Part shown: piece after piece, positions 20,838 to 39,255 of the stretch
Layout of the letters: each line of letters opens with the position of its first letter
Position numbering within the stretch: position 1 is the first letter of the stretch
Source: Candidatus Abyssobacteria bacterium SURF_5
GTDB taxonomy: Bacteria > Abyssobacteria > SURF-5
Direction: 5' to 3'
Assembly (NCBI GenBank): GCA_003598085.1
Contig: QZKU01000099.1
Span: 1-51,235, forward strand
DNA length: 51,235 nucleotides
Position numbers and translations under genes: made by a program
The notes under the pieces: model-generated
Database searches by the model: none
Seen by the model: only the letters and a program-made list of their open reading frames with translations
What the model was told of the DNA's origin: nothing

Positions 20838-21521
20838 ATGGCCGGCGAACATATTCTCGTTGTCGAAGACGAGGACGACATCCTGGAACTTGTCCAATAT
20901 AACCTCCGCAAGGAGGGTTATCGAGTGACCGGCGTGACCTCCGGCGAGCAAGGGCTGGAGGCAGCCGCTTCCAAGAGGCCTGACCTGATCGTGCTTGACC
21001 TGATGCTGCCCGGAATAGACGGCCTCGAAGTCTGCAGGTTGACGAAGAATAATCCTTCAACCGAACGTGTGTCGATCATTATGTTGACGGCTAAAGGAGA
21101 AGAAGCCGATATCGTCTCAGGCCTTGAGCTCGGAGCCGATGATTATCTGACAAAACCATTCAGCCCTCGAGTCCTGCTGGCAAGAGTGCGAGCCGTTTTG
21201 CGCAGGCGGGAAATACCGCCCGATGCCGGAGCAACCGTTCGGGTGCATGATCTCCTGATCCATCCGGGGCGCCATGAAGTTGCCGTTGGGGGAAAGCCGA
21301 TCGATTTGACTTTCTCGGAATTTCAGATTCTGTACGCGCTGGCGCGGAAGCCGGGCTGGGTATTCACCAGAAACCAATTGGTTGATGCGATTCGCGGTGA
21401 AGATTATGCCGTCACCAGCCGCTCGGTCGATGTCCATATCACCAGCCTGCGCAAAAAACTCGGCGGCGCGAGAAAATACGTCGAAACCGTCAGAGGCGTC
21501 GGCTACAGGCTCAAGGAGTAG
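20838..21521 (+). CDS. phoB: Phosphate regulon response regulator PhoB
   Basis: OmpR-family transcription factor, 227 aa. The receiver domain has the acidic pair EDED, the phosphorylated Asp in LDLMLPGIDG, LTAKGE and the Lys in DDYLTKPFSP. The C-terminal winged helix contains LTFSEFQILYALARKPG and ends in DVHITSLRKKLG and VRGVGYRLKE. phoR follows 3 bp downstream and pst genes lie further on, which supports PhoB over other OmpR types. It probably binds the 11-nt repeats found at five places in this region. Confidence 0.93.
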   Translation: MAGEHILVVEDEDDILELVQYNLRKEGYRVTGVTSGEQGLEAAASKRPDLIVLDLMLPGIDGLEVCRLTKNNPSTERVSIIMLTAKGEEADIVSGLELGADDYLTKPFSPRVLLARVRAVLRRREIPPDAGATVRVHDLLIHPGRHEVAVGGKPIDLTFSEFQILYALARKPGWVFTRNQLVDAIRGEDYAVTSRSVDVHITSLRKKLGGARKYVETVRGVGYRLKE

Positions 21522-21524
21522 CCG

Positions 21525-23300: not shown

Positions 23301-23433
23301 GGCGCGAATCGTTACGCGATGAAATGTATGCCCGCCTCCGCAAATTGCACCAAGAGAACGCCGCCGTCTAATTTGTTATGCTAACCGGTTGTCTCCGCCT
23401 CTGACCTCCTCAATCGCCGACATTCGCACATAT

Positions 23434-23471
23434 TTATCCTTTTCCTAATGCAGCGATCATCTATTCTTAAC
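23434..23471 (+). promoter_or_regulatory. Pho box-like array upstream of the 51-aa Cys-rich gene
   Basis: Pentamers at an exact 11-nt period: TTATC (23434), CTAAT (23445), ATCAT (23456), TTAAC (23467). The second and fourth are strong and the others weaker. The small gene starts 66 nt further on. Confidence 0.55.
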
Positions 23472-23537
23472 ACTGCCTGAGTATCCTTTTTTCAAGACGT
23501 GCGTCGCGCACTTGGCGGCAAAAGAGAAAAGGAGAAC

Positions 23538-23693
23538 ATGAAAATGAGGGCTGAAACCGGAGAATGTCGGTGGTGTGGCTGTCCCATTGTCCATCAATGC
23601 GGCCTTTGTTTCTTTTGCTTTGAGGAAAGGCTGGCGGCAGAGAATGGCGGAGAGTTAATATTCAGCATATCTGAGCAGGCTCTTGATCAGTAA
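23538..23693 (+). CDS. Small cysteine-rich zinc-ribbon-like protein
   Basis: A 51-aa protein starting at ATG 23538, with GGAGAAC directly upstream; a 13-codon upstream extension lacks such a site. Six cysteines and a His cluster in residues 9-28: CRWCGC, HQCGLCFFCFEE. These paired CxxC motifs suggest a single zinc knuckle or ribbon. No family recognised. It lies between phoR and a soluble histidine kinase, with its own Pho-box-like repeats, so phosphate control is inferred. The rest of the protein is acidic and featureless. It could be a regulator or adaptor, but nothing shows that. Confidence 0.6.
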   Translation: MKMRAETGECRWCGCPIVHQCGLCFFCFEERLAAENGGELIFSISEQALDQ

Positions 23694-23866
23694 CAAACGT
23701 ATAGTAAGACCCTGCCGAAAAGCTGTGCAGAAACAATACATCAAAACTGTCCGCAGCATCGGCTGTCCAATCAAAGATTGAATTCTCTTCAAAATATCTT
23801 TTCCTGCAACGCAGTGCTTGGGCGTCCTCCTGCATTCTTCCTGAGATTCCGCAACTGCTAATATTT

Positions 23867-23930
23867 TTATTCAAATATTAATGAAACCCTAATCGTTCTT
23901 TAATGGTGAGGAGATACAACTGGATATAAG
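23867..23930 (+). promoter_or_regulatory. Pho box array and promoter of soluble histidine kinase
   Basis: TTATT (23867), TTAAT (23878), CTAAT (23889) and TTAAT (23900) repeat every 11 nt. A -10-like TATAAG is at 23925-23930. The kinase ATG is at 23953 with a GGGAGG ribosome site. Confidence 0.7.
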
Positions 23931-23952
23931 AGAAAATGAAAGGGAGGAATGT

Positions 23953-24876
23953 ATGTCTGTCGAACACGGTACGTATGTGGCTGAGGACCATTTTCACGTC
24001 GTCATTTTTCCTGATCTGTGCGATTTCCATGAAGACCAGAATTGTTTCTCTCAGAGCGGACTGCCTGTCCGTAAGAAAAGGAAGATGACAATGTGTTCCC
24101 TTGGTGACGGCTCCCCTGTTTATGATCAAATTCCGGCAAACGTTGAACATCTTGCCTCAATCGGACAGATGGTTTCGTTTGTTGCTCATGAGATGAGAAA
24201 CCCATTGCAAAATATTCAGCTTGGCGTGGATATCTTGCGGATGAAGATCGAAGAAAACTGCGAAAAACTCGAGACCTTGGAACAGATCGAATACGGAGTG
24301 CATATGCTGCACACGATGGTGAAAGACCTTTTGGATTACGCAAAACCAATAGCCCTGCGTCCATGCCCCACTACGATCAGCGCGCTCATCGCGAAATCGT
24401 TGCTTGCACTGAGCAACAAGATCAACGGCATTCCGGTTCATCTCGATTTGGAGCAGGCGGACCGAGAAATTCTCCAAGACGTGGAAAAAACGCTGCAGTT
24501 GTTGATTAACTTGATGCTGAACGCAGTGGAGGCGATGCCGCGAGGCGGCGAATTGAAAGTGCGCTCTCGCTTTACCACATTGAATGGAGCAAATGCTGTG
24601 GCACTAATGATCTCTGATACCGGCTGCGGTATCAGTGAATCCGATCTGGAGCGGATTCAACAGCCGTTTGTCACTACCAAACAGCAAGGCGTCGGGCTCG
24701 GCATCCCCATCTGCAAAAAGATCATCGCGGCGTACGGCGGAACATTCCACATCACGAGCAGTGTGGGAAAGGGAACAACCGTCGTCGTGACGCTTCCCGT
24801 GCAAGCGGTCAATCCCAACCAGAACGGAAATGTTGAAGCCAACCATCCGGAAGGCTATCCGGCGCCGGTAAATTAG
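23953..24876 (+). CDS. Soluble histidine kinase in the Pho island
   Basis: Cytoplasmic histidine kinase of 307 aa with no membrane segment. The first 60 residues are cysteine/histidine-containing (DLCDFHEDQNC) and unlike a known sensor domain. HisKA follows with His79 in FVAHEMRNPLQNI, then an ATPase domain with LMLNAVEAMP, DTGCGIS and GVGLGIPICKK. It resembles the NtrB-like kinase class. No response regulator gene is adjacent; its partner may be PhoB, the NtrC-type regulator at 31382-32758, or something outside the window. Pho boxes upstream suggest it is induced on phosphate limitation. Confidence 0.87.
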   Translation: MSVEHGTYVAEDHFHVVIFPDLCDFHEDQNCFSQSGLPVRKKRKMTMCSLGDGSPVYDQIPANVEHLASIGQMVSFVAHEMRNPLQNIQLGVDILRMKIEENCEKLETLEQIEYGVHMLHTMVKDLLDYAKPIALRPCPTTISALIAKSLLALSNKINGIPVHLDLEQADREILQDVEKTLQLLINLMLNAVEAMPRGGELKVRSRFTTLNGANAVALMISDTGCGISESDLERIQQPFVTTKQQGVGLGIPICKKIIAAYGGTFHITSSVGKGTTVVVTLPVQAVNPNQNGNVEANHPEGYPAPVN

Positions 24877-24883
24877 TAAACTC

Positions 24884-24926
24884 CTCACACACCCTTAATA
24901 ATCCTCTAACATTCTCCAGTTATCAT
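24884..24926 (+). promoter_or_regulatory. Pho box array upstream of small membrane protein and porin
   Basis: CTCAC (24884), TTAAT (24895) and CTAAC (24906) have an 11-nt period. A -10-like TATCAT lies at 24921-24926, very close to the start codon at 24941. The repeats are good but the promoter assignment is tentative. Confidence 0.5.
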
Positions 24927-24940
24927 TACCCACTGGAAAT

Positions 24941-25162
24941 ATGATCCGCTTTTATGAAGACATAATGAATCTCTTGATCCCCCCGCTAGCCGTCCTCTGG
25001 GGATGGTCTATCGTGGCTTTCACACGCTGGAGACTCGAGAATTTGGCGCGGAAAGGAGGTGAGCCGCTTTGCGGAATGGATGATTGGGCGGTCCAGTTGT
25101 TTGTCCGAGGGACCGCTCTGCTTTTTCTACTTGTGATTGTGGTGTTGAGTTTCTGGAGCTAA
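24941..25162 (+). CDS. Small two-span membrane protein
   Basis: A 73-aa protein with two hydrophobic segments, about residues 9-27 and 52-71, joined by a charged loop (FTRWRLENLARKGGEP). No recognised family. It ends 12 bp before the porin gene and shares its Pho-box region, so it is probably in the same transcript. The ribosome site is weak. Its size and position suggest a membrane accessory of the phosphate response, but there is no direct evidence for a role. Confidence 0.6.
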   Translation: MIRFYEDIMNLLIPPLAVLWGWSIVAFTRWRLENLARKGGEPLCGMDDWAVQLFVRGTALLFLLVIVVLSFWS

Positions 25163-25174
25163 GAGAGGGAGAAT

Positions 25175-26470
25175 ATGAAGAAAAGCGTTATGGCATTGTG
25201 CATCGGATTTCTTCTGCTGTCCGGCCGGGCGTACGCTCAACAGCCGGACCAATCGGAACAGCTCGAGCGGCTTCAGCGTATCGTCGAGGAGCAGAATCGC
25301 ACCATTTCAGACCTCATGCAACGGCTGGAATCACTCGAAGGTGTCCAGGAAGAACAGCAAGAGTGGATTTCAGAGACCAAAGAAGCAAAGCCCGTGTGGA
25401 CCGATCGCGTGAAGCTCAAGGGCGATCTCAGGTACCGCTACGAGTATATCGACTCTCTTGATACAAAAACAGGGAAGGACGAGGAGCGGCATCGCAACCG
25501 AATCAGAGCCAGGATCGGTATCGAAGCAAAAGCGACCGACACGGTAGATTTAGGCTTCCAATTGTCCACCTCGGAAGCGGGCGGCGATGAGGATCTGGGC
25601 GACCCGGTCTCGGGTAACCAAACCCTCGATAATGCGTGGTCGCTCAAGGAAATATGGGTGTCCGAAGCCTATTTCGACTGGCATCCGGCCAACGTCGAGG
25701 GACTGCATGTCCTGGGCGGAAAAATGAAACGCCCCTTCATTAACCCAAATGCCAGCGAGCTGGTGTGGGATTCCGACGTCAATCCCGAAGGCGGAGCGCT
25801 CACCTATAAGAAAAGCCTGGACTCCACCGACCTCATGGGAAACCTTTACGGCTTCTGGATCGAGGAAAATTCGGCGTCGTCGGATTCCCTGCTGGTCGGA
25901 GCACAGGGCGCGCTCAAACAGAAATTTGAAGCCTTTGATAACGGCCTCTATGCGATGGCCGGCGCCAGCTACTACGATTACGGCGGTATCGAGGCAAAAG
26001 ACACGTTCTTCGATGACGGCAAAAGCTTCGGGAATACGATCCTGCCCGATGGCACATACGCCGAGGATTTCAATGAACTCGAAGTTTTCGGCGAAGTCGG
26101 CATGAGGATCAAGGAGGTCCCCGTCTCCGTGTTCGCCGATTACGTGCAAAACCTCGCGGCCGACGAAGAGGATGCCGGCTGGTCGGTCGGCTTTGGCGTC
26201 GGAAAAACAAAAGACCCGGGTTCCTGGGCATTCCGATACCTGTACAAAGAACTTGAACAGGACGCGGTCGTCGGCCTCTTCACCGACTCCGATTTCGGCG
26301 GCGGCGGAACAAACGTGGATGGCCACGAGGTGAATTTGACCTACCAACTCGCCAAAAACTGGCAACTGGCTGCGTCTTACTTTCATAACAACCAGTTCAT
26401 CAGCGATGACGACGGCAGAGACGAAGAGGATTACCGGAGACTGCAGCTCGATGTCATCTTCAAGTTCTAG
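25175..26470 (+). CDS. Outer-membrane porin, putative phosphate-starvation porin
   Basis: The 431-aa protein has a Sec signal peptide (MKKSVMALCIGFLLLSG, cleavage near AYAQ), a periplasmic coiled-coil stretch (about 27-65, EQLERLQRIVEEQNR), then a beta-barrel rich in alternating aromatic residues that ends in the outer-membrane signal VIFKF with terminal Phe. The RYRYEYIDS start of the barrel is typical of porins annotated as putative or phosphate-selective porins. A strong GGGAGAAT site precedes the ATG. Pho boxes upstream and pstS downstream suggest it admits phosphate or other phosphorus compounds during starvation. The selectivity is inferred from context only. Confidence 0.85.
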   Translation: MKKSVMALCIGFLLLSGRAYAQQPDQSEQLERLQRIVEEQNRTISDLMQRLESLEGVQEEQQEWISETKEAKPVWTDRVKLKGDLRYRYEYIDSLDTKTGKDEERHRNRIRARIGIEAKATDTVDLGFQLSTSEAGGDEDLGDPVSGNQTLDNAWSLKEIWVSEAYFDWHPANVEGLHVLGGKMKRPFINPNASELVWDSDVNPEGGALTYKKSLDSTDLMGNLYGFWIEENSASSDSLLVGAQGALKQKFEAFDNGLYAMAGASYYDYGGIEAKDTFFDDGKSFGNTILPDGTYAEDFNELEVFGEVGMRIKEVPVSVFADYVQNLAADEEDAGWSVGFGVGKTKDPGSWAFRYLYKELEQDAVVGLFTDSDFGGGGTNVDGHEVNLTYQLAKNWQLAASYFHNNQFISDDDGRDEEDYRRLQLDVIFKF

Positions 26471-26570
26471 TAAATTTGGAACGGTCCATCTGCCAAACGG
26501 CCGCGATGGCGACTTCGCGTGCGGAGCGGGACCGGCTCCATTTAACGAAGTGCGAAGGGGACCGGAATTA

Positions 26571-26592
26571 AGGCGGCTGTCCTTTGCCGCCT
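26571..26592 (+). other. GC-rich hairpin after the porin
   Basis: AGGCGGC (26571-26577) and GCCGCCT (26586-26592) form a perfect 7-bp stem with an 8-nt loop, 100 bp after the porin stop. No T-tract follows. It may mark the end of the porin transcript ahead of the pstS promoter. Confidence 0.35.
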
Positions 26593-26674
26593 GTCCCCGA
26601 AGCAGGAACCAGCCGCTCAATTCGGAAGGTCTTACGGTCTCAGCTTTCCTGCCGGCCTCCCGGAATACAGAATC

Positions 26675-26722
26675 TTAACAGAACCTTAACGAAATGCTAA
26701 CAATCTCATGAGACAATAACAT
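26675..26722 (+). promoter_or_regulatory. Pho box array and promoter of pstS
   Basis: The clearest copy in the window: TTAAC (26675), TTAAC (26686), CTAAC (26697), exactly 11 nt apart, two of them in the context CTTAAC. A -10-like TAACAT is at 26717-26722. The pstS ATG follows at 26751. Confidence 0.78.
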
Positions 26723-26750
26723 ACAACGAAGAGGAAGAAAGGACGAAGAT

Positions 26751-27794
26751 ATGCGTAATCTATGGACAGTCGCATTAGCTATGCTTCTGATTTTCAGCGC
26801 AAGCGCAGTTGGTCTCGGGCAAGAGGTCGCCATAAACGGCGCCGGCGCAACTTTCCCCTACCCCATTTATTCACAGTGGACATACAAGTACAATCAGCTA
26901 ACCGGAGTCCGAATCAATTACCAGTCGATCGGCTCCGGTGGCGGAATCGCTCAGATAAAAGCCGGAACCGTCCATTTCGGCGCCTCCGACGCCCCCCTGA
27001 AACCGGAGGAACTGGACGAGGCAGGGCTGATCCAATTCCCGATGGTGATCGGCGGCGTCGTGCCGGTCATCAATGTCTCCGGGATCGAGTCGGGAAATCT
27101 GAAGTTAACGCCCAGCCTCCTCGCGGATATCTTCCTCGGAAAGATAACCCGGTGGAACCACCCCTCACTGCTGAAAGCGAACGTCGGACTCCGGCTTCCG
27201 GATAAGGCGATCACCGTTGTGCACCGGGCGGACGGCTCGGGGACTACGTGGATTTTCACCGACTATCTGAGCAAAGTCTCACCGCAGTGGAAGGAAAGCA
27301 TCGGAGTCGGCACGGCGGTCGCCTGGCCCACCGGCATTGGCGGCAAAGGCAATGAGGGCATAGCCACCTACGTCCAGCGGACAGCAGGTTCGATCGGGTA
27401 TGTCGAATATGCCTATGCATTACAGAACAAGCTGGTGTATGCCCTCCTGCAAAACAAAGCCGGCAACTTCGTGGCGCCGACTATGGAGACTTTTCAGGCC
27501 GCGGCCGCCGGCGCGGATTGGAAAAACGCCCCTGGCTATTACCTGATCCTGACCGACCAGGACGGCGCCGAAAGCTGGCCCATCACCGGCGCGTCGTTCA
27601 TCCTCGTTTACAAACAGCAGAGGAATGCGAAACAGGGAAAGACCATGCTTTCGTTCTTTGACTGGTGTTACAGGCACGGCGCCGATATGGCCAAAGAGCT
27701 GCACTACGTCCCGATCCCGATGAACGTCGTCGATCTTGTCAAAAACACCTGGCAGGAACAAGTAACATCGAATGGGCAGCCCCTGTGGCCATAA
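26751..27794 (+). CDS. pstS: Phosphate ABC transporter substrate-binding protein PstS
   Basis: Periplasmic high-affinity phosphate-binding protein, 347 aa, with a signal peptide ending near VGLGQE. Phosphate-binding landmarks: INGAGATFPYPIYSQW, SIGSGGGIAQI, FGASDAPL and RADGSGTTWIF. GKGNEGIATYVQ is also typical. It begins the pst operon behind three perfect Pho-box repeats. A 142-bp repeat element separates it from pstC, which may lower expression of the downstream genes relative to pstS. Confidence 0.96.
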   Translation: MRNLWTVALAMLLIFSASAVGLGQEVAINGAGATFPYPIYSQWTYKYNQLTGVRINYQSIGSGGGIAQIKAGTVHFGASDAPLKPEELDEAGLIQFPMVIGGVVPVINVSGIESGNLKLTPSLLADIFLGKITRWNHPSLLKANVGLRLPDKAITVVHRADGSGTTWIFTDYLSKVSPQWKESIGVGTAVAWPTGIGGKGNEGIATYVQRTAGSIGYVEYAYALQNKLVYALLQNKAGNFVAPTMETFQAAAAGADWKNAPGYYLILTDQDGAESWPITGASFILVYKQQRNAKQGKTMLSFFDWCYRHGADMAKELHYVPIPMNVVDLVKNTWQEQVTSNGQPLWP

Positions 27795-27799
27795 GCAAA

Positions 27800-27941
27800 A
27801 ATATGGGGACAGAGACCATATTTTTATCGTTATTATTATTTTTGTTCTTGCAGTAAAGATAGAAATATAGGGATAGGGAGCGTATTTTCGTTTACAATAT
27901 TTTTGTACTCCGAAAATAAAAATGGCATCTGCCCCCATATT
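27800..27941. repeat. 142-bp MITE-like element with terminal inverted repeats
   Basis: The left end (27800-27819) reads AATATGGGGACAGAGACCAT; the reverse complement of the right end (27922-27941) reads AATATGGGGGCAGATGCCAT, 17 of 20 identical. The inside is AT-rich and non-coding, in contrast to the GC-rich flanks. It sits between pstS and pstC. Similar AATATGGGGACAG-type ends are familiar from elements mobilised by REP-associated (Y1) transposases; that link is by memory, and no transposase is in the window. No other copy was noticed here. Confidence 0.6.
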
Positions 27942-28000
27942 AACTCGATAATTCCGGGTTCCAGGGCCGAATATCAAAGGAGCACCAGGGACTTTCAGCA

Positions 28001-28984
28001 ATGAACGAGCCGCAGCCCACATACCTCGGGAAAATGGCGCCTGCGAATGAATCCTTTCCTGCTGCACTTGCCCGTTCAGGAGATCCCGTCTTCAAGTGGT
28101 TCACGATCTCCTGCGCGGGCACCATGTTGATGCTGCTCGTCGGCATCTTTGTCATCCTTGTCTGGCGATCCAACCTCTCAATCCGGAAATTCGGCTTCTC
28201 GTTCCTGCTCTCACAAGAGTGGAATCCGGTGATCGGAGAATTCGGCGCGCTCAGCAGCGTTTACGGGACGGTGGTATCGACCGTCATTGCAATGCTCCTG
28301 GCGGTTCCGCTGAGCCTCATCATTGCGCTCTTTCTGGTCGAGCTGGCGCCTCAGTCGATAAGCCGCATTATCGGAGGCGCCATCGAGCTCCTGGCGGCGA
28401 TCCCCAGCATCATCTATGGGATGTGGGGCCTCTTCGTCTTTGCGCCGCTCATGGCGGATCATGTGCAGCCGTTCCTTGGAGACATCGCCGGATGGCTCCC
28501 GCTGTTTCAGGGACCCCCGATGGGGATTGGCATGTTAACCGCCGGATTGATCCTCGCCCTGATGATCCTCCCTTTCATCTCGGCCATTTGCCGCGACGTC
28601 TTTCGCATGGTGCCCGCAGTCGTCAAGGAGTCCGCGTACGGAGTCGGCGCCACTACCTGGGAAGTGACCAGAAAAGTGACGCTCCGATACGGCGCGCGCG
28701 GGATCATCGGGGGCGCCTTCCTCGGTCTCGGACGCGCACTCGGAGAAACCATGGCCGTTACCTTCGTCATTGGAAACGATCACACCATCTCGCCCTCGCT
28801 CTTCGCTCCGGCTAACAGCATCGCATCCACACTCGCCAATGAATTTACTGAGGCCTTCGACCCGCTCTACCTGAGCGCCCTGATCGAACTCGGCCTTGTC
28901 CTGTTCGTCCTGACGCTGATCGTTCAGCTTATCGCACAGATCTGGCTCAACCGCATGCGAAAAGCGGCAGGAGGTGGATTATGA
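28001..28984 (+). CDS. pstC: Phosphate ABC transporter permease PstC
   Basis: Inner-membrane permease subunit, 327 aa with six predicted membrane segments (the first about 37-58). The coupling-helix region (ESAYGVGATTWEVTRKVTLR and the following GGAFLGLGRALGETMAVTFV) is typical. Its stop overlaps the pstA start as ATGA. The ribosome site is modest (AAAGGAG lies farther upstream than usual), perhaps a result of the repeat element inserted just before it. Confidence 0.95.
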   Translation: MNEPQPTYLGKMAPANESFPAALARSGDPVFKWFTISCAGTMLMLLVGIFVILVWRSNLSIRKFGFSFLLSQEWNPVIGEFGALSSVYGTVVSTVIAMLLAVPLSLIIALFLVELAPQSISRIIGGAIELLAAIPSIIYGMWGLFVFAPLMADHVQPFLGDIAGWLPLFQGPPMGIGMLTAGLILALMILPFISAICRDVFRMVPAVVKESAYGVGATTWEVTRKVTLRYGARGIIGGAFLGLGRALGETMAVTFVIGNDHTISPSLFAPANSIASTLANEFTEAFDPLYLSALIELGLVLFVLTLIVQLIAQIWLNRMRKAAGGGL

Positions 28985-29829
28985 GAAACCGGTCCCATAA
29001 ATGGCGGCGGCGAGTCAATCTTGTAGTCCAAATTTTGTCATCGACAGCGGCTTTGGCCGGCGTGGCGGCGCTGGGTTGGATTCTCATCGAAGTGGCCGTC
29101 CGCGGCGCCGCGGCCCTTAACTTCGCGTTCTTCACTCAACTGCCCACTCCCCCGGGAATGCCCGGCGGCGGATTGGCAAGCGCCATCGTGGGCACCCTCC
29201 TGATGACCGTACTGGCGTCTCTTTCCGGGATCATGATCGGCGTGTTCACCGGCGTCTACTTATCTGAATTCGGGCGCAGCACGCTCTTTGCCTCCTCAGT
29301 CCGCATGGGAACAAATGTCCTGATGGGAACCCCCTCCATTATCATTGGAGTATTCATCTATGCGCTGCTGGTTGCGCCGATGGGTCATTTCTCGGGTTAC
29401 GCGGGAGCGGCGGCTCTCGCCATCATCATAGTCCCGGTAGTCGCCAGAACGACCGAAGACATGCTCGGACTCGTGCCCAATGAACTGCGAGAGGCGGCGC
29501 TTGCAATCGGCGCGCCCCGCTGGAAAATGACGATGGGAATTGTCTTCCGCTCCGCAAAGGCCGGCCTGTTGACGGGAGTTCTGCTTGCCATCGCCCGCAT
29601 CAGCGGCGAAACGGCCCCCCTTTTGTTTACCGCTCTCAACAGCCCTTACTGGCCGAAGTCGTTGACCGAGCCGACCGCAAATCTTACGGTGACTGTATTC
29701 AACTACGCCATGTCGCCGTATGCCGACTGGCAACGGATGGCATGGGGCGCTTCATTTATAATTACCGGCAGTGTGTTATTATTAACAGTAGCGGCAAGAG
29801 GTTTTCTGCTCATGAAAAGGGAAAGATGA
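28981..29829 (+). CDS. pstA: Phosphate ABC transporter permease PstA
   Basis: Second permease subunit, 282 aa, with six predicted membrane segments. [20 protein letters not shown] is the coupling helix and [16 protein letters not shown] the conserved following segment. It overlaps pstC and pstB by 4 nt each (ATGA), indicating tight translational coupling of the pstCAB set. Confidence 0.96.
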
Positions 29830-30671
29830 AACTGGTGGAAAAGGAACCCAAACACGCTCTCGTGAAGCCTTATGCAGTGAAGGCAGGCGTGCCGGGAAAT
29901 GCTTCTTCAACTCAAATGCAAAAAAAAGTTTCGGTGAGAGGTCTTAATTTTTATTATGGATCCCACCAGGCCCTCCACGACAACGACCTCGATATCGCTC
30001 CGAACCAGGTGACGGCGATCATCGGCCCGTCAGGATGCGGAAAATCCACCCATATCAGGGTCTACAACCGCATATATGAATTGTATCCGGACCAGCGAGC
30101 AACCGGCGAGGTCCTTCTTGATGGGGAAAATGTCCTCTCCCCGTCAGCAGATCTCATCCAGCTACGAAAGAAGGTGGGAATGATCTTCCAGAAGCCCACG
30201 CCGTTTCCGATGACCGTCTTTGAAAATGTCGCCTACGGGCTGAAACTCCACTACCGCCTGAGCCGCAGTCAACTGGCGCAACAGGTGGAAAAGGCCTTGC
30301 GCGACGCCGCTCTCTGGAATGAGGTGAAGGATAAACTCAATAAGCCGGGCTTGGCTCTTTCCGGTGGACAGCAACAGCGGCTTTGCATCGCCCGCGCAAT
30401 CGCCCTCGAGCCGGAGCTCCTCCTGATGGATGAACCGTCTTCCGCAATCGATCCGGTCGCGACAGCGAAGATCGAAGACCTGATCGAAATACTCAAGGTC
30501 AATTATACGATCGTAATCGTAACGCACAACATGCAGCAGGCTGCACGCGTCTCCGATTTCACCGCCTTTTTCTATGAGGGTCGGATCATCGAGTTCGATA
30601 CCACTTCGCGCATCTTCACGAATCCATCCGAAAAACAGACGCAGGACTACATCACGGGCCGCTTCGGTTGA
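29826..30671 (+). CDS. pstB: Phosphate ABC transporter ATP-binding protein PstB
   Basis: ATPase of the Pst importer, 281 aa from ATG 29826, which overlaps the pstA stop. Walker A is GPSGCGKST, the signature is [14 protein letters not shown], Walker B is [12 protein letters not shown], and the H-loop is [34 protein letters not shown] is specific for PstB. A roughly 35-residue N-terminal extension before [13 protein letters not shown] is longer than in E. coli. Two positions differ from common PstB sequences: Walker A is followed by HIRVYNR, and DEPSSAIDP replaces DEPCSALDP. Confidence 0.95.
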
Positions 30672-30687
30672 GAAAGGATACGCAAGT

Positions 30688-31377
30688 ATGCCCATTCACT
30701 TGCACCGCGAAATTGATCGGCTGAAAAAGAACGTCCTTCACCTCGGCGCGGTTGTCGAGGAGAACGTGTTCCGGGCCGTGAAAAGCATAGAAGACCGGGA
30801 CGTAAAGCTTGCGAAGAAAGTACTCGAGGTGGACGCCGAAATAGATAAGATGGAAGTCGAAGTCGAGGAAGACTGCCTGAAAATACTTGCGCTCAACCAA
30901 CCGGTCGCAATCGACCTGCGTTTCCTGATCGCAATGCTCAAACTCGACAATGATCTCGAACGAATCGGCGATCTCGCCGTCAATATCGCCGAACGATCCA
31001 TCTACCTCGCAAATAATCCGCCGACCAACGTCTCTTTTGAATACCGGGAAATGACGCGGAAAACCGAAGCTATGCTCCGCAAAAGCCTCGATGCCTTGGT
31101 AAACTTGAACATCGAGCTTGCGCGTGAAGTCTGCGCCGCCGACGACGAAATCGACGCAATTGAACGAAAAATCGTCGAGCAGGCGCAAGAAGCCATTAAA
31201 AAATATCCGGACGAGGCGGACAGGCTGTTACACCACATGTTCGTCGCCCGCCACCTGGAGAGAATCGCCGACCATGCAACTAACATAGCCGAGGATGTGA
31301 TCTATATGGTCGGCGGCGAGATCGTGCGCCACCGAGTAGTGAACTACTTCCAGAAACACGGCCGGAACCGCCAATAA
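30688..31377 (+). CDS. phoU: Phosphate transport system regulator PhoU
   Basis: Cytoplasmic all-helical protein that links Pst activity to PhoR and keeps the Pho regulon off when phosphate is plentiful. The 229-aa protein has two three-helix repeats, each with the metal-binding pattern: DNDLERIGDLAVNIAE and HLERIADHATNIAEDV. ATG at 30688 (MPIHLHREID) is preferred over an upstream in-frame extension into pstB; AGAAAGGA precedes it. Last gene of the operon, converging with the sigma54 regulator 4 bp away. Confidence 0.95.
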   Translation: MPIHLHREIDRLKKNVLHLGAVVEENVFRAVKSIEDRDVKLAKKVLEVDAEIDKMEVEVEEDCLKILALNQPVAIDLRFLIAMLKLDNDLERIGDLAVNIAERSIYLANNPPTNVSFEYREMTRKTEAMLRKSLDALVNLNIELAREVCAADDEIDAIERKIVEQAQEAIKKYPDEADRLLHHMFVARHLERIADHATNIAEDVIYMVGGEIVRHRVVNYFQKHGRNRQ

Positions 31378-31381
31378 AGCT

Positions 31382-32758
31382 TCACTTCAGTCCAAACTTC
31401 TGAAGACGGTACCGCAGCGTATCGCGCGAAATCCCGAGAAGCTCGGCCGCACGCGTCTGATTTCCCGCCGCCATCGAGAGCGCCTTTGAAATGAGTTCCT
31501 TCTCAACTTCCTCAAGCGAAAGCCCCGTCATCGGAAATTTTTCCGCGACCGCGGACCTTCGCGGACCCTCAACGTACTGTGAGATCTCCGGGGGCAAATC
31601 ATCAATGTCGATATAGTCGCCTGTTTCCAGGATCAGTATTCGTTCAATTACGTTCTTCAACTCGCGAATATTGCCCGGCCACGGGTAGACGGAAAGCAAT
31701 TGAAGGGCTTCGCTTGAAATTCCTTGTACCGACTTCTTGAACTCGTAGTTGAACTTCTCGATGAAGAACTGCGCCAGCCTCGGAATGTCCTCGCGCCGCT
31801 CCCTCAGCGGAGGAAGGTAAATGGGGATGACCTTAAGCCGATAAAACAGATCGTTGCGGAATCTGCCTTCCTCGATCGCGGCTTTCAAATCCTTGTTGGT
31901 CGCGGCAATGATCCTGACGTCAACACTGATTTCGACCGTGCCCCCTACGCGGCGGAAGCGCTTCGTTTCGATCGCCTTCAGTAGTTTTCCCTGAAGCGAG
32001 AGCGGCATGTCGCCGATCTCATCCAGGTACACCGTTCCCCCGTTTGCCAGTTCAAACAAGCCTTTCTTCTGTCCTCGCGCCCCGGTAAATGAGCCGCGCT
32101 CGTGTCCGAAGAGCTCGCTCTCGAGCAGACTCTCGGGAAAAGCCGAGCAGTTGATGTCAAGGAAGATGGACTGCGAGCGATCGCTGAGCGAATGGATCGT
32201 CCGCGCGACAAGATCTTTTCCTGTCCCGCTCTCTCCTTGCAGCAATACGGTGGAAAATTTGCTTGCGGATACCTTCTCGATGGTCGAAAAGATTTCCTTC
32301 ATCGAGGGGGCTTCTCCAATCATATTCCCCAGACCGAACTGCGCCTTCAAATCGTCCTTCAGATTGCTGAGCTCGCGGCGCATCCGCGAGGTCTCCAGGG
32401 CCATCTCGATCCGAAGTTTGACATCCTCAATTTCGAACGGCTTGCAGATATAGTCGACCGCGCCCTCTTTTACCGCCCGAACGGCTGTCTTCACATCGCC
32501 CGTCCCCGTAACAATAATGAAGAGCGGATGAAAATCCCGCCTCTTCGTTTCCTCCATGACCTGGAACCCGTCGATGCCGGGCATTCGTAAATCAAGCAGG
32601 ACAACATCAGGCTCGATCTCCTCGATGAGACCAAGCGCCTCTTCGCCGGAAGCAGCCTGCGTCGTGCTGTAACCCGCCTGCTGAAGATCCTTCTCAAGCG
32701 ACCACCGGATAAGGTGCTCGTCATCAACAATCAGAATTTTCGCCTTATTCATCTCCAT
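31382..32758 (-). CDS. Sigma54-dependent response regulator (NtrC/AtoC family)
   Basis: Enhancer-binding activator of 458 aa. The receiver domain has VDDEH and phosphorylated Asp56 in LLDLRMPG. The AAA+ domain has Walker A GESGTGKD (175-182), the sigma54-contact loop as GSFTGA (usual GAFTGA), and LDEIGDMPL as Walker B. The C-terminal Fis-type helix-turn-helix is AGNQTRAAELLGISRDTLRYRL. It is the last gene of a three-gene cassette after a histidine kinase (22 bp gap) and a binding lipoprotein. I saw no convincing -24/-12 sigma54 promoter in the window, so its targets are unknown. Confidence 0.93.
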   Translation of the reverse strand: MEMNKAKILIVDDEHLIRWSLEKDLQQAGYSTTQAASGEEALGLIEEIEPDVVLLDLRMPGIDGFQVMEETKRRDFHPLFIIVTGTGDVKTAVRAVKEGAVDYICKPFEIEDVKLRIEMALETSRMRRELSNLKDDLKAQFGLGNMIGEAPSMKEIFSTIEKVSASKFSTVLLQGESGTGKDLVARTIHSLSDRSQSIFLDINCSAFPESLLESELFGHERGSFTGARGQKKGLFELANGGTVYLDEIGDMPLSLQGKLLKAIETKRFRRVGGTVEISVDVRIIAATNKDLKAAIEEGRFRNDLFYRLKVIPIYLPPLRERREDIPRLAQFFIEKFNYEFKKSVQGISSEALQLLSVYPWPGNIRELKNVIERILILETGDYIDIDDLPPEISQYVEGPRRSAVAEKFPMTGLSLEEVEKELISKALSMAAGNQTRAAELLGISRDTLRYRLQKFGLK

Positions 32759-32780: not shown

Positions 32781-34748
32781 TCAGTTGTCCGCCCGGTTGC
32801 CCGGATTTTCTTCTCCGGCGGATATTCCGCTTGAAACCGAAGCGCGCTCTTCGCTCATTATCGGGAGTACGACCGTAAACGTGCTTCCCCGCCCGGGCGT
32901 GCTCTCCGCAAGAATTTCGCCGTTATGATCCTTGATGATCCCGTAACTGATGGAGAGGCCCAACCCTGTCCCCTCGCCGGGCTTGCGCGTCGTGAAAAAC
33001 GGGTCGAATATCCGATCACGTATCTCCGGTTTTATCCCCTCGCCCGTGTCCGTTATCGATACCTGAATCGTCCTCTCGTCAGCGCCGCTTGAAACGAACA
33101 GGGTGCCGCCATCGGGCATCGCTTTGCGAGCGTTTACAATGATGTTAAGGAATACCTGCTGCAACTCATTCGGATCCCCCAGCACCGGCGGCAGGTTTTC
33201 CGTCAGCCGCGTTTCAACCTTCACCCTGTCCTTCTTCAGGTTGCTCTGCATGAATCCCAGGGTCTCCCGGACAACGTCGTTCAAACTCAGCGGGACAAAA
33301 TGTTTCTCCGACACCCGAGCAAACGTCAGCAAGCTGCCGACAATCGACTTGCATCTCTGGATTTCCCGCTCCACGTAGACGAGGTTCTTCTGGAAGCCCT
33401 CGGCTTCCTCATCGCTTACGTTGCGAAAACCGCGCGCACGTACGGTCTCCGCCAGCACTTGCAGAAACGCGTAGATGCCGGCCAGCGGATTATTCAGTTC
33501 GTGGGCGATCCCGGCGGCGAGCTCGCCAACAGCCGCTAGTTTGCTCGATTGAATCAGCTTCGCCTGCGCCTCGGCCAGTTGCTCGCTTCGTTTGGCCACT
33601 CGTTCCTCGAGCGTCTGATTCCAGCGCTCCAGTTCCTCCCGATATTTTCGCAGATCGGCAACCATCAGGTTGAACGATTTGCTTAACTCCCCCACTTCAT
33701 CGCTGGTCCGGACCGGAACGTACTGATCCAGGTTTCCTTCGGCAACGGCATTGCTGGCGCGAGAAAGCTCCCGGATCGGGTCAATTGTCTTCGAAACCGT
33801 CAGCACGTATATCGGAACCACAATGAGCAACATCAGCCCGACTGCAACGATGGTTGTGATCACAATGTTCCGCTTGGTCCTCGAGAGGTCATCGATCGAC
33901 TCGAACACGGCCACAATCGCGTCTTTCTTGAAATTGACCACCAGCGGAGCGAGCGACATCTTTACGGAGTGACCGTCGTAATTGTATTCGGAGATATAGG
34001 GGACGCCGCTGACTATAACCTGGCTCATCAGCTTCGGAGTCACCTCCTGCCGAACCAGCGCATCGCAGCGTTCGTCGCGTGAACTGCTTTCCACCAGAAT
34101 TCCGCGATGATACACTTGCAGCCGGTACGCGCCCGCCTTCTGGCAAAGATCCTGAAGAAATTCAGAATCTATTCTCTTCGAAACTGTAACGACCGATCTG
34201 CTGTCGGAGCGACCTTCGATCCGAGCCACAGCGGAAATGGCAAGACCGGGTTTACCGTCCTCGAACTCAGACACCAGCCCAATCGTTCTGATTCCAAGCA
34301 TGCCCAGTCGGCTCAGCTCGGGGTTGCGCTTGGCAAAGCGCGTGCCGCTTCCCCCAATGTCGGAGTAAATCCCGTTCTCATTCAGGAATTCCAGAAGATA
34401 TATGAGAATCAACCGGCTGTCGCGCGCCTCAGAGATGTGACCCGCAAGCTTCTCGGTGTCGGCGATGAACTCCGCATAAAACGCAAGACTTTTCTCCATG
34501 TCGGATACCATCTCCTGCACCAAGCGGACATCGTTGTCCAACTTCTCATTCACCCGCGCTTCGACATTCGAAGAAACCAGATCCATCATCCCGTAAATAA
34601 TGAAGACGGCAATGAAGATCATCACCGCCAGGAACGGCAGGAAAATCTTGTTCTGCAGCTTGTTCCAGCGGGCAAAGTACCTGTGCATGAGCCGGTTCAC
34701 GTCACTCCACAACTTCATTTGCAGACAGCGCCGATTTAGGATCCACAC
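32781..34748 (-). CDS. Membrane sensor histidine kinase, partner of the binding lipoprotein
   Basis: Histidine kinase of 655 aa from GTG 34748, which has AAGGAG 4 nt upstream; ATG at 34718 (MKLWSDVN) is an alternative. Either start overlaps the preceding gene, suggesting coupling. Membrane segments at about 35-57 and 293-317 enclose a roughly 235-residue extracytoplasmic domain that looks Cache-like. HAMP (318-370), a coiled coil, HisKA with His416 in [13 protein letters not shown], and an ATPase domain ([21 protein letters not shown]) follow. It is flanked by a periplasmic binding lipoprotein and an NtrC-type regulator, so it probably reads the lipoprotein's state. Confidence 0.92.
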
Positions 34749-36435
34749 CGATCTCCTTCAGCATTCTGTATAAATCCTCATAATCGGCATCGGTGGTGGG
34801 CAAAAATCCGCTGGCTCCACCCAGTGAGGAAAGCGCAACTCTGCCTTCCGCATCCTGAGGCATCGCAGCAAGAAACTCCCCGATCGTTGCGCCCACATCA
34901 AATTTGGCGGGAAGATCCGATTGAATCTTGCCTTCTTTCCCAAGCGATGAATGACAATCGAAACACGGCAGATTCAGATTCTTACGGACAACAAACGCGT
35001 TGTTCGGAACGGGCGGCGATTTCTCCAGAATATGAAATGCCGATTCAAGTTCAGGATTCTCCTTCATGAACATGCGAAGAATCAGGTCTTTTGCCGCTCC
35101 GACGTCTGCCTCACGATGCAGAACCGCCAGGATGACGTCGTCATGAGTGCCGACAAAATTGGCCTGAGAAAAGTACGCCCGGTAATCCTGTATCCCCTGT
35201 TGCTTGAAATGGTAAAGCGGGAACACGTATCCGGCCGTCGTCGTCCTGCCGGCCATGACGAGACGCTTCCCGCGCATCTGCGCAAGGTTCTTGATCCCGC
35301 TGTCGGCCCTGACAAAAATCAGGCCGCGATACATGGAAATCCCGTGATAATCCGGGCGCGCAATAACGTCCACAACGTCGCTTACTGTCGTATAGGCGTA
35401 GCTGCCCAGAAAAGCGGCGTTTATCGAACCGTCTGCGAGTGCGCGGCAGACTTCAATATACGCCGAGAACAGCTTGAGCTTGACCGAAAAGCGCTCTCCC
35501 AGCTTGTGAGACAGATAATCCGCCAGCGGCTGGTATCTCTGATTTTGCACCATCACGTCCTGCTCGGGCACGATGCCGATCAGAATCTCGTAGCGCTGCG
35601 GAATATACCCGGAATTTTCGATGATGCGAGAGCCGGCATCGGAAAAAATGAAGTTGACAAACCGCATGGTGGCCACTTTCGGGTGAGGTCCGAGGACTAG
35701 TCCGAACGGCCGCAGAAACTTGTAACTGCCGTCCTTTACGTTCGATCTTGTCGGTTTTACGCCGTTCACGGAGAGAATGTTTACCCTGGGTCTTTCTGAA
35801 ACAATCTCGCCAAGCGAAGTATACCCGATCGAATTCGCGATCCATTCGATGGAATCGGTTACCTGCCACGGGCGCTCCACCACGACCGCCTCGGAAGTAA
35901 CAAGCGCGTCTTCCGGCAGATAATGTTTCCGGAATGCCAGCTTCGCCGAGCTGAGTTCCGGACGATCAATCACCACAATCTTCGCGTCCGGACCTCCCAC
36001 CTCCGACCAATTCGACATCTTTCCGGTATAGATATCCCTGATCTGATCGATACTCAAATTGACGATGTCAAGATTTGGATTAACCGCAAAGACCAGACCG
36101 TCACGAGCCAAATGGAGATAGCGCAATGGGTTCACTTTTTCATCGGGCATCCGCTCCCGCGAGATGGCTCCGATATCATATTCCTCCTCCGTTGTCCCCA
36201 CAATCGCGACGTCAGAATGGGAATCGGGCAGAAAGACAACCTCTATTTCCTTTTCCCTTTTCATGAATTCGCCTGCCAAAATCTTCAGCAGCGGCATGAC
36301 AGCGGCAGAGCCTGAGACGAATACTTTTTTGTCGCGAACGGCGAGTGATCGGGCGGATGGTTCCTTTTCAGAGCACGATAGTAACGATGCCGATACAAGC
36401 GCTACCACAGCGGGAATGCAGAACGTCCACTTCAA
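34702..36435 (-). CDS. Tandem PstS-like/PhnD-like binding lipoprotein with CXXCH haem-type motif
   Basis: 577-aa lipoprotein. The start is TTG at 36435: AAGGAGA lies 6 nt upstream and the promoter is just beyond it; a longer frame to 36576 begins upstream of that promoter. Signal peptide with lipobox SLLSC (Cys21). Residues about 37-280 are a PstS-type phosphate-binding domain (SGSAAVMPLLKIL, YDIGAISRER, NPNLDIVNLSIDQIRDIYTG). Residues about 283-577 are a PhnD-type phosphonate/phosphite-binding domain (GIVPEQDVMVQNQRYQPLADYL, FLGSYAYT, SGFLPTTDADYEDL). An insertion of about 25 residues carries CFDCH (491-495), a c-type haem attachment motif. It heads a kinase/regulator cassette, so a sensory rather than transport role is inferred. 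Confidence 0.85.
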   Translation of the reverse strand: MKWTFCIPAVVALVSASLLSCSEKEPSARSLAVRDKKVFVSGSAAVMPLLKILAGEFMKREKEIEVVFLPDSHSDVAIVGTTEEEYDIGAISRERMPDEKVNPLRYLHLARDGLVFAVNPNLDIVNLSIDQIRDIYTGKMSNWSEVGGPDAKIVVIDRPELSSAKLAFRKHYLPEDALVTSEAVVVERPWQVTDSIEWIANSIGYTSLGEIVSERPRVNILSVNGVKPTRSNVKDGSYKFLRPFGLVLGPHPKVATMRFVNFIFSDAGSRIIENSGYIPQRYEILIGIVPEQDVMVQNQRYQPLADYLSHKLGERFSVKLKLFSAYIEVCRALADGSINAAFLGSYAYTTVSDVVDVIARPDYHGISMYRGLIFVRADSGIKNLAQMRGKRLVMAGRTTTAGYVFPLYHFKQQGIQDYRAYFSQANFVGTHDDVILAVLHREADVGAAKDLILRMFMKENPELESAFHILEKSPPVPNNAFVVRKNLNLPCFDCHSSLGKEGKIQSDLPAKFDVGATIGEFLAAMPQDAEGRVALSSLGGASGFLPTTDADYEDLYRMLKEIGVDPKSALSANEVVE

Positions 36436-36736
36436 ATAATTCTCCTTGCTCGACAGATGCCTGAATTTTGTCGTTTCATTATACCATATGGGCAGAGAGT
36501 TCCAAAAGAAGGGACATTGTGCGAAAGGATACCATTTGCCGGCGTGATAAATGAAGGGCATGAGCAACAAAGACAACCATCGTCATCTTGCTCGTTGAAG
36601 TGCGCCCGCTTCAGTGCTGAACTCTTAAACTGCTTCAATCCTGAAAAAGCTCGCAGAATTCAGCTATTGCGACCCTGAATCTTATCGGATAATTAAGGAG
36701 CTTCGTTTCTCGGAGGGGATTTCTCAATGCGTCGCC
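36436..36736. other. Non-coding region between Lon-like gene and binding lipoprotein gene
   Basis: 301 bp with no convincing gene. It contains the promoter of the signalling cassette (separate entry). A weak ATTCAG/CTGAAT inverted repeat near 36655-36682 lacks a T-tract. No 11-nt TTAAC-type repeats are visible, so the cassette does not look PhoB-controlled. Confidence 0.5.
36478..36505 (-). promoter_or_regulatory. Promoter of the binding lipoprotein/kinase/NtrC cassette
   Basis: On the minus strand, -35 TTGGAA (36500-36505), 16-bp spacer, perfect -10 TATAAT (36478-36483). Transcription would start near 36471, 36 nt before the TTG start at 36435. This supports the TTG as the true start. Confidence 0.7.
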
Positions 36737-39193
36737 TCAATTCTTATTATTGGCGACTTTCGTCTCACCGTCGCCGTAGTACTCCTTCAGCCCTCTGCTC
36801 AAAATTTCCAATCGGTCTACTACAAGACGATTCAGCGTCCCCTTCGGGTATTTCCCTGTCTTCGTCCGCGTCCCGCACTTCATGCCGGTCAAGAGCTCCA
36901 ACCCCTCGTCAACGGTGTTGACGGAAAAGATGTGGAATTTTCCTTTACGGACCGCTTCGACTATCTCTTCATTCAACATCAAATCGTCCACGTTCATTCG
37001 CGGTATGAGAACGCCTTCATTCCCCTTAAGGCCTCTCGTCTTGCAGATCTTGAAAAACCCCTCGATTTTTTCGTTCACGCCGCCGATCGGCTGTACGTTC
37101 CCTTTCTGGTCTATTGAACCGGTTACCGCAAGATTCTGTCTGATGGGCACTTGCGCAACGCTCGAAATGAGCACGTACAGTTCGGCCGTAGACGCGCTGT
37201 CGCCGTCAACCTCTGCATACGATTGCTCGAAGCAGATGCTCGCGCTGAGAGTCAGCGGCTTGTCCTGCGCGTACTTGCCGCGCAGGTACCCGCTCATGAT
37301 GAGCATTCCCTTGTCATGCGTGCTTCCGCTTAACTTGGACTCGCGTTCGATGTTTACGATCCCGGCGCGGCCCATCGACGTCTCAGCCGTAATTCGTACC
37401 GGCTTCCCAAACACGTGGTCGCCCGTATGATAAACCGCAAGGCCGTTGATCTGCCCGATCTTGCTGCCGGCAGTGTCAATGCGGATGCGGCCGTCATCCA
37501 CATATTCCTTTATTATCAATTCAAGTTGACTCACTCGCTCGATGCGATCCTTGATTGCTTGCTGGACATGCTTCGAGCTTATGCATGCGACCTTTTCCTT
37601 TTGCCCGAGATAGCTCGCCTCACGAATCACATCGGCTACCTCGCTAAAGCGGGTGGTTATCTTTTTCTGCCTGCCCGCCTCCTCCACACCAAATTCGATT
37701 ACGGCGGCGGCGCCCGTCGGATCAAGATGAAGCAGTCCCTCACGGTTGCAGAGGCTGTTCATGAAGTTCAAGTAATCCCGTATATGCTTCTGACTGTTCT
37801 CCATGTCCGGCACAAAGTCCGATTTCACCTTGAAGACTTTGCGGAAATCTTCATCGTATCCGTGCAGCATCCGATACAGGTAGTAATCGCCTACCATTAC
37901 CACTTTGAGATTTATGTTAATCGGCTCAGGCTTCATTCCCGAAACGGAAAAGAACGGGAACATCCCGGTCGTCGGAATCTCGACCACTTTGTTTATAAGC
38001 GCCCGTTTCAGGGTCTTCCAGACATACGGCTCGGTAAGAGCGTCCATCGCATTAAAGACGAGGTAACCCCCGTCGGCGCGCAAAATGGAGCCGGCTTTGA
38101 TCCTCATATGATTGGTCTCGGGCTCGCCGCTGCGAGAAAAGGAAGTCTCCACCGTTCCGAAAAGATTGTGGAACGTCGGTGAATTCTCAATCACGATCGG
38201 AACCCGCTTCGTTTCAGAATTATCCACGATCACATTGACCTGGTACTCCAGAAACGAGTCCTCGATCCGAATCGTCGGCAGGCCGGGCGCAGGCGCATAC
38301 TCGACCGGACCGCGCTTGAACCGGTCGATATCCAAAAGCACATTGTCTTTCACCTGTTCAAGGAAATCAAGAATCTCCTCGTTTTCCCCATATTTCACCT
38401 TCAGGCTCTCTATGAAACCGTCAACCACAAACAGCGCGAAATCGCGGTCAAGTTTTTCCAATTTCTCCTTCACCTCTCGCTCAATCGCGGCGGCGGCCTT
38501 TAGTATCTCCTGCAATTGCTTGTCGTACTCGATATACTTCTTCTTGAATTCCTCGAGATCAACTCCCGTTATCTTGCCCGCATTGACTAGTGCAACATAT
38601 TCTTCAACCGGAATAGGCTTCCCCTCGACCAGCGGCGCAATCCCCGATTTGGTCAGAGTGCCCACCTTCATCTGAATAAGAGCCAGGTTTTCCTGATTCA
38701 GTTTTTCCTGGAACGGCTGAAAAATATCTTCTTCTGATGCGCGCAATCGACTCACAATCTCCTCGCGACTCTCCTGGTAGTTCTCACTTTCAAATACCTT
38801 CGGTATATTCGACGTCAGAGAATCGATCAGGTCTTCCATATCTTTTCTGAATCGCTTCCCGAAGCCGGCGCGAAGCTCGATAATTCGCGGCATATCAGGC
38901 ATTTTGAAATTATGCACAAAACATTTATCGTTGGGCACGCCGTTCTTGACCTTGAGCTTTTCAAGAATGAACTTCACGGTCGTCATCTTGCCCGTTCCGC
39001 TTAATCCCGCAACATACACGTTAAAGCCGGGACTGCCGATGGCAAGGCCGGTTTCCATTGCCTTCAATGCCTTTCCCTGACCGATTATCTCCATTTTCTC
39101 TTTGATATCTGCGGTGGTCTTGAATTTAAACAAGGCCGGATCGCACTTCCACCGCAACTGTTCGGGTTTCAATTCCAGGTTCTTTATTGGCAT
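36737..39193 (-). CDS. Lon-family ATP-dependent protease with AAA_32-type ATPase
   Basis: An 818-aa Lon-like protease distinct from classical LonA. The N-terminal ATPase has Walker A GLSGTGKM (63-70) and a long insertion (about 95-250, coiled-coil rich). The C-terminal Lon protease domain has the Ser/Lys dyad: Ser666 in DGDSAS and Lys709 in GVNEKIEGF, 43 residues apart as in E. coli Lon (679/722). ATG 39193 (MPIKNLELKPEQLRW) is chosen with GGAAGGGA upstream; in-frame starts at 39220 and 39241 are weaker. It has its own promoter and probably acts in protein quality control. Confidence 0.92.
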   Translation of the reverse strand: MPIKNLELKPEQLRWKCDPALFKFKTTADIKEKMEIIGQGKALKAMETGLAIGSPGFNVYVAGLSGTGKMTTVKFILEKLKVKNGVPNDKCFVHNFKMPDMPRIIELRAGFGKRFRKDMEDLIDSLTSNIPKVFESENYQESREEIVSRLRASEEDIFQPFQEKLNQENLALIQMKVGTLTKSGIAPLVEGKPIPVEEYVALVNAGKITGVDLEEFKKKYIEYDKQLQEILKAAAAIEREVKEKLEKLDRDFALFVVDGFIESLKVKYGENEEILDFLEQVKDNVLLDIDRFKRGPVEYAPAPGLPTIRIEDSFLEYQVNVIVDNSETKRVPIVIENSPTFHNLFGTVETSFSRSGEPETNHMRIKAGSILRADGGYLVFNAMDALTEPYVWKTLKRALINKVVEIPTTGMFPFFSVSGMKPEPININLKVVMVGDYYLYRMLHGYDEDFRKVFKVKSDFVPDMENSQKHIRDYLNFMNSLCNREGLLHLDPTGAAAVIEFGVEEAGRQKKITTRFSEVADVIREASYLGQKEKVACISSKHVQQAIKDRIERVSQLELIIKEYVDDGRIRIDTAGSKIGQINGLAVYHTGDHVFGKPVRITAETSMGRAGIVNIERESKLSGSTHDKGMLIMSGYLRGKYAQDKPLTLSASICFEQSYAEVDGDSASTAELYVLISSVAQVPIRQNLAVTGSIDQKGNVQPIGGVNEKIEGFFKICKTRGLKGNEGVLIPRMNVDDLMLNEEIVEAVRKGKFHIFSVNTVDEGLELLTGMKCGTRTKTGKYPKGTLNRLVVDRLEILSRGLKEYYGDGETKVANNKN

Positions 39194-39255
39194 CGTCCGA
39201 TATATCCCTTCCTTCTCCATATAAAAGCATGGGTAACTCACCCCGGGTGACGTTC

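Follow-up and report, generated by a model that had tools for sequence, protein, structure and literature searches.

Binding proteins are usually treated as ligand clamps without a cofactor; what, then, is a heme-attachment motif doing inside one? The question is raised by a 51,235-nucleotide contig of “Candidatus Abyssobacteria” bacterium SURF_5 (QZKU01000099.1, assembly GCA_003598085.1), here called the window, in which a minus-strand open frame encodes a protein that joins a PstS-type domain to a PhnD-type domain and carries a CXXCH motif. We conclude that this receptor is real, conserved, and unusual and that it is most likely a tandem binding protein that bears c-type heme and belongs to a kinase-activator system linked with respiratory cytochromes. 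Its features, in window positions, are as follows.

34702 to 36435, minus strand: gene for the tandem binding protein, putatively heme bearing (577 amino acids, TTG start; supported by relatives)
36442 to 36447, minus strand: ribosome-binding site AAGGAG, 6 bases ahead of the TTG start (read from the sequence)
36373 to 36384, minus strand: lipobox-like LLSC, residues 18 to 21, a predicted membrane tether (from the sequence)
35596 to 36333, minus strand: PstS-type domain, residues 35 to 280 (Pfam PF12849; matched in both sequence and fold to phosphate-binding PDB entries)
34753 to 35592, minus strand: PhnD-type domain, residues 282 to 561 (Pfam PF12974; NCBIfam TIGR01098; AioX, PtxB, and ArrX folds)
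34897 to 34968, minus strand: insert of about 24 residues, 490 to 513 (alignments with other PhnD-type proteins; predicted local distance difference test score [pLDDT] of about 42)
34951 to 34965, minus strand: CFDCH, residues 491 to 495, candidate c-type heme attachment motif (C, C, and H invariant in 5 proteins)

Receptor architecture and capacity for heme attachment

The tandem architecture had been proposed in an initial annotation made from the letters alone, and it was confirmed by Pfam, AlphaFold2, and Foldseek, with the strand (minus) newly added. PBP_like_2 (PF12849) covered residues 35 to 266 (E value, 4e-25), and Phosphonate-bd (PF12974) covered residues 286 to 552 (E value, 1.5e-51). 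On the C domain, PF12974 scored 175.6 bits against a cut-off of 27 and TIGR01098 scored 127.3 against 112, which places the domain in the PhnD-type superfamily; the score for TIGR03431, the equivalog of the PhnD phosphonate transporter, fell below its cut-off (128 bits versus 261). The score for the PstS family TIGR02136 on the N domain was likewise below its cut-off (144.6 versus 206.6), though the fold matches PstS. An AlphaFold2 model built on a 30-row alignment contained two well-folded domains (mean pLDDT, 85.5), and Foldseek matched the N domain to PstS (4gd5) and the C domain to AioX, PtxB, ArrX, and PhnD. Cys21 is plausibly the lipobox cysteine that tethers the receptor to the membrane; the relative in genome G033 has no lipobox-type cysteine, and an N-terminal membrane segment apparently anchors it instead.

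Export had been the ground for calling c-type heme attachment feasible, and the genome supports that view. Two CcsA-type genes (PF01578) each lie beside a gene that is ResB-like by eye, gene sets that we take to be System II cytochrome c biogenesis, and multiheme cytochromes are encoded as well. The absence of maturation genes, named beforehand as grounds for dismissing heme, is not what the genome holds. The protein has the attributes of a c-type heme protein, namely, export, a conserved CXXCH, and maturation genes in the same genome, and from these we infer that heme is attached to the receptor.

Conservation of the CXXCH insert

Sampling covered about 400 genomes, close to one for each family, together with a few small phyla. 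A genome-wide contig scan was seeded by N-domain patterns, most matches being ordinary PstS; no relatives were found among viral contigs. Besides the window's own genome (G000), four genomes encode a tandem protein with an insert of the same size: G001 (CFECH; 63% identity to the window receptor), G002 (CFECH; 60%), G033 (CYNCH; 42%), and G208 (CYKCH). G000, G001, and G002 are all the sampled genomes of their phylum, G033 is the only sampled genome of its phylum, and G208 comes from another set of five. The four relatives span at least two further phyla; the phyla of the relatives are small (1 to 12 genomes each), limiting wider sampling there. The assemblies are mostly drafts or metagenome derived, and five independent ones agree.

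CFDCH was said to lie in an insertion of about 25 residues, and alignments place it in one of about 24: residues ~490 to 513 have no counterpart in 17 aligned relatives, comprising 14 single PhnD-type proteins and 3 tandem proteins (G360, aligned with the 14 singles, and G397 and G398). The homolog search suggested at the outset found CXXCH conserved in all four other insert-bearing tandem proteins and thus kept at one place in 5/5. C491, C494, and H495 are the sole invariant residues of the insert, the rest of which shows pairwise identities of 0 to 36% among the five proteins, versus 39 to 69% outside it. No CXXCH was found in any other window open frame of at least 100 amino acids. Judged from these alignments, the pattern is a mark of selection on a heme-attachment motif and not of chance, because CXXCH recurs at the same place in four relatives whereas the other insert residues have diverged.

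Could the cysteines instead form a thiol-disulfide switch or, with the histidine, a metal site, with no heme at all? No other cysteine of the mature protein is conserved, and the insert is predicted to be flexible, both of which suit such a role. However, the histidine after the second cysteine is invariant and would be superfluous for a disulfide, the exact CXXCH spacing is found in 5/5 proteins, genes for c-type heme attachment are present, and related kinases carry CXXCH in c-heme-like domains, so we consider a heme-free site quite unlikely.

Partner kinase, activator, and the either-or placement of CXXCH

Two partner genes follow the receptor gene, in the order receptor, overlapping kinase, and then activator.

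32781 to 34748, minus strand: partner histidine kinase (HAMP, HisKA, HATPase_c), 655 amino acids, without CXXCH; its first 47 bases are shared with the receptor gene
31382 to 32758, minus strand: partner NtrC-type response regulator (REC, sigma-54 activator, Fis-type helix-turn-helix), from gene order and Pfam

A kinase adjoins the receptor in 5/5 CXXCH tandem proteins and an NtrC-type activator in 4/5, G033 having in place of the latter a kinase-receiver hybrid with its own receiver domain. None of these five kinases contains CXXCH (0/5). Next to the three insert-less tandem proteins, the adjacent kinase does have a periplasmic CXXCH (CFRCH in G360, CYRCH in G397 and G398). All three periplasmic parts resemble PF21563, and those of G397 and G398 resemble PF11845 as well (mostly below curated cut-offs); these are the families of the Geobacter and Tll0287 c-heme sensors (PMC12889525). 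Beside single PhnD-type relatives, a CXXCH kinase directly adjoins the receptor at ten loci, and in the eight of these that were aligned the motif occupies one periplasmic position. In the loci read, a receptor-kinase unit that has the motif thus carries it in the receptor or in the kinase, never in both, and this either-or placement, the strongest argument that we have, suggests that it acts in signaling. The initial annotation had reasoned that homologs of the same architecture without the cysteines would speak against heme. Taken literally, the three insert-less tandem proteins are such homologs; nevertheless, what they lack is the whole insert, and they lie beside a CXXCH kinase, so the case for heme is strengthened by them. 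A role as a signaling component is also more likely for the receptor than one as a transporter subunit, by analogy, because AioX shares the PhnD fold and works with partners of the same types (PMC5908839).

The aligned CXXCH kinases beside PhnD-type receptors lie at L152:6952-8412, L154:4748-7039, L155:2154-3950, L158:6849-9374, L160:3986-5728, L162:3704-5965, L163:3462-5723, and L175:5628-7481. No named Pfam domain covered the aligned CXXCH region in the kinases scanned, and the region is possibly an undescribed helical c-heme sensor domain. On the opposite flank of the receptor gene in G397 and G398 lies a gene for a second protein, which is homologous to the sensor part of the window kinase. 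Homologs of the same sensor part, with an unusual H-box (IKHTVNNSL), occur beside a separate CXXCH kinase at L173:6021-8015 and L174:6000-7775. A structure model of the kinase (mean pLDDT, 61) was too weak to use.

Ligand pocket

The oxyanion-binding residues of PtxB (Y55, Y100, S130, T131, and H160) correspond to Y326, Y369, T399, T400, and H431 in the receptor, all of which are invariant in the five CXXCH tandem proteins. The ligand is likely an oxyanion on this basis. Phosphite or another reduced phosphorus compound, suggested as an example when the protein was first described, is not supported. The capping Y208 that gives PtxB its phosphite specificity is replaced by Asn479, on which ground a phosphite receptor was rejected, the STS motif has Ala401 as its third residue, and the receptor gene has no neighboring genes for phosphonate or phosphite transport. 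The ligand cysteine of AioX is also absent (Cys106 corresponds to Gly344), and AioX Asp210 aligns with Asp450. The insert starts 11 residues after the cap residue, a spacing at which movement of the cap upon closure could reach the putative heme loop.

Genomic neighborhoods and a possible regulon

Multiheme cytochrome genes adjoin the receptor gene in 3/5 cases. In G001 and G002, a 20-heme cytochrome gene lies directly upstream, within a cluster that also includes two more multiheme cytochrome genes, two lipoprotein genes, and a gene for a large protein whose ortholog in the window's genome has NHL repeats; in G208, multiheme cytochrome genes flank the receptor on both sides. Together with the kinase and NtrC-type partners, these neighbors in three relatives lend support to the early suggestion that ligand sensing is coupled to redox or respiratory status.

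The same neighbors would also suit a heme that served as an electron-transfer site. In that case the protein would relay electrons between multiheme cytochromes and the membrane, with the kinase gene merely co-located; the 20-heme gene is immediately upstream in two genomes, and multiheme genes are near the G208 copy. Yet the kinase is adjacent in 5/5 cases and a cytochrome in only 3/5, the ligand pockets are conserved, and the either-or placement of CXXCH points to signaling, and a relay is accordingly improbable. Association with multiheme cytochrome genes also suits a reading in which CXXCH serves as a maturation or heme-supply check, the receptor being active only once heme is attached and the kinase reporting the capacity for cytochrome c assembly, not redox state. 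A precedent exists in apo-TorC, which interacts with TorS and prevents induction (PMC10845959). We judge this check unlikely, as the CXXCH of related kinases lies in domains resembling known redox or nitric oxide (NO) sensor families (PMC12889525).

The window offers a further neighbor in its phosphate genes (pstS, two permease genes, pstB, and phoU), which occupy 26751 to 31377 and are convergent to the receptor system. With its PstS-type N domain, the protein might be an ordinary phosphate-regulon receptor serving them, its CXXCH being incidental. This is very improbable, as the phosphate genes already have a PhoB/PhoR-like pair close by (20838 to 23300), no pst genes were seen among the scanned flanking genes of the relatives, and the conservation of CXXCH is not incidental. 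The whole run from 20838 to 31377 reads in one direction (PhoB/PhoR-like pair, another kinase, porin, pstS, two permeases, pstB, and phoU) and ends 4 bases from the convergent activator gene.

Several further features were recorded around these loci. A strong sigma-54-like site, TTGGCAAGAATTTTGCT, is found at L035:5131, just after a 20-heme cytochrome gene and before a small PilZ-like gene. Small proteins that are PilZ-like by eye are encoded between the receptor gene and a cytochrome or kinase gene at L035:5238-5648, L150:10358-10711, and L173:4182-4535. At L166:338-7639 and L151:647-6134, a 20-heme cytochrome is clustered with two lipoproteins and a large protein containing NHL repeats, and this group is a candidate outer-surface electron-transfer system of the phylum. 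Directly upstream of the window receptor gene lies a gene for a LonB-like AAA protease (36737 to 39241), and in G043 a protein of similar length is encoded divergently beside a PhnD gene (L154:8099-10612). A membrane H+-pyrophosphatase gene is present at window positions 6664 to 8760.

A proposed dual-input sensor

The explanation that we consider quite probable is a dual-input sensor: a kinase governing respiratory cytochromes would be under the joint control of an oxyanion pocket and a c-type heme, and the receptor would probably report a bound oxyanion together with the redox or gas state of the cell envelope. In this three-part system, a membrane-tethered tandem periplasmic receptor would be joined by a HAMP histidine kinase and, as the third member, an NtrC-type sigma-54 activator. 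A tetrahedral oxyanion would be clasped by the PhnD-type domain, and one covalent c-type heme would be held by the insert, which follows the ligand-capping segment by a few residues. The redox or ligation state of that heme, set by electron supply or by a gas such as NO, might act jointly with the oxyanion on receptor conformation, which the kinase would read to switch on respiratory (multiheme cytochrome) genes. Heme would be carried by the binding protein here and by the periplasmic domain of the kinase in related systems. We also lean toward a more specific form of this proposal, an AND-type receptor in which a single molecule senses both an oxyanion and redox state or NO, with covalent c-type heme acquired by a short CXXCH insertion in a PhnD scaffold and functionally replacing the heme found elsewhere in the partner kinase.

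Several observations weigh against the proposed sensor. The structure prediction recommended as a check returned both domains folded, but it gave the insert a pLDDT of only ~42. H108 and M257, invariant in the CXXCH tandem proteins and absent from the three tandem proteins without the insert, are only candidate distal ligands, since 22 lineage-specific positions would by chance be expected to include about one His or Met of this kind (an estimate). A tree of the C domain is compatible with one clade of CXXCH tandem proteins (one change, in 72% of the bootstrap trees, with branch support of 71/40), support that is modest. Next to six single PhnD-type relatives (L153, L156, L157, L161, L164, and L165), the adjacent gene lacks CXXCH. 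No cytochrome gene adjoins the receptor gene in the window's genome or in G033; in the former, the 20-heme ortholog (56%) and its NHL and lipoprotein neighbors are on contig C64 (G000:C64), away from the receptor. Finally, G002 was the only genome in which the scan for sigma-54 sites gave a strong site, a single one located 768 bases ahead of the receptor gene.

Comparison with known systems

An organizational parallel is found in the arsenic oxyanion sensors AioX, ArxX, and ArrX, with AioS and AioR. AioX and ArrX are among the closest folds to the receptor C domain, and, as in these three-part sensors, a gene for a PhnD-fold receptor lies here beside genes for a kinase and a sigma-54-type regulator. 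Unlike AioX, the receptor is a tandem protein with an N-terminal PstS-type domain and a CXXCH insert, and it has Gly344 in place of Cys106. PtxB and PhnD have in common with it the fold and the oxyanion-binding Tyr, Thr, and His residues; they differ in the capping Tyr (here Asn479), in the third Ser of STS (here Ala401), and in serving an ATP-binding cassette (ABC) transporter rather than a kinase. The TorT-TorS-TorR system with TorC likewise combines a periplasmic binding protein, a kinase, and c-type cytochrome input (PMC10845959), but the cytochrome there is a separate protein, whereas here CXXCH lies inside the binding protein.

Our literature search found no described binding protein with covalent heme and no description of dual sensing of an oxyanion and redox state or a gas in such a receptor. 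The closest precedent is sCache_heme (DUF3365/Tll0287; the Geobacter GSU0582 and GSU0935 sensor domains), in which a short CXXCH segment is likewise set in a ligand-binding sensor scaffold and whose host proteins have links to kinases or chemoreceptors (PMC12889525). The receptor described here has a type II binding-protein fold rather than a Cache fold, would place heme in a separate receptor, and retains an oxyanion pocket. It offers a testable handle on the control of multiheme, possibly extracellular, electron-transfer genes in poorly known subsurface bacteria. If c-type heme is indeed attached, the PhnD-type fold would be a second scaffold, after the Cache domain, to have gained heme by a short cytochrome-like insertion, and a cofactor would be shown to move between the receptor and the kinase of one pair.
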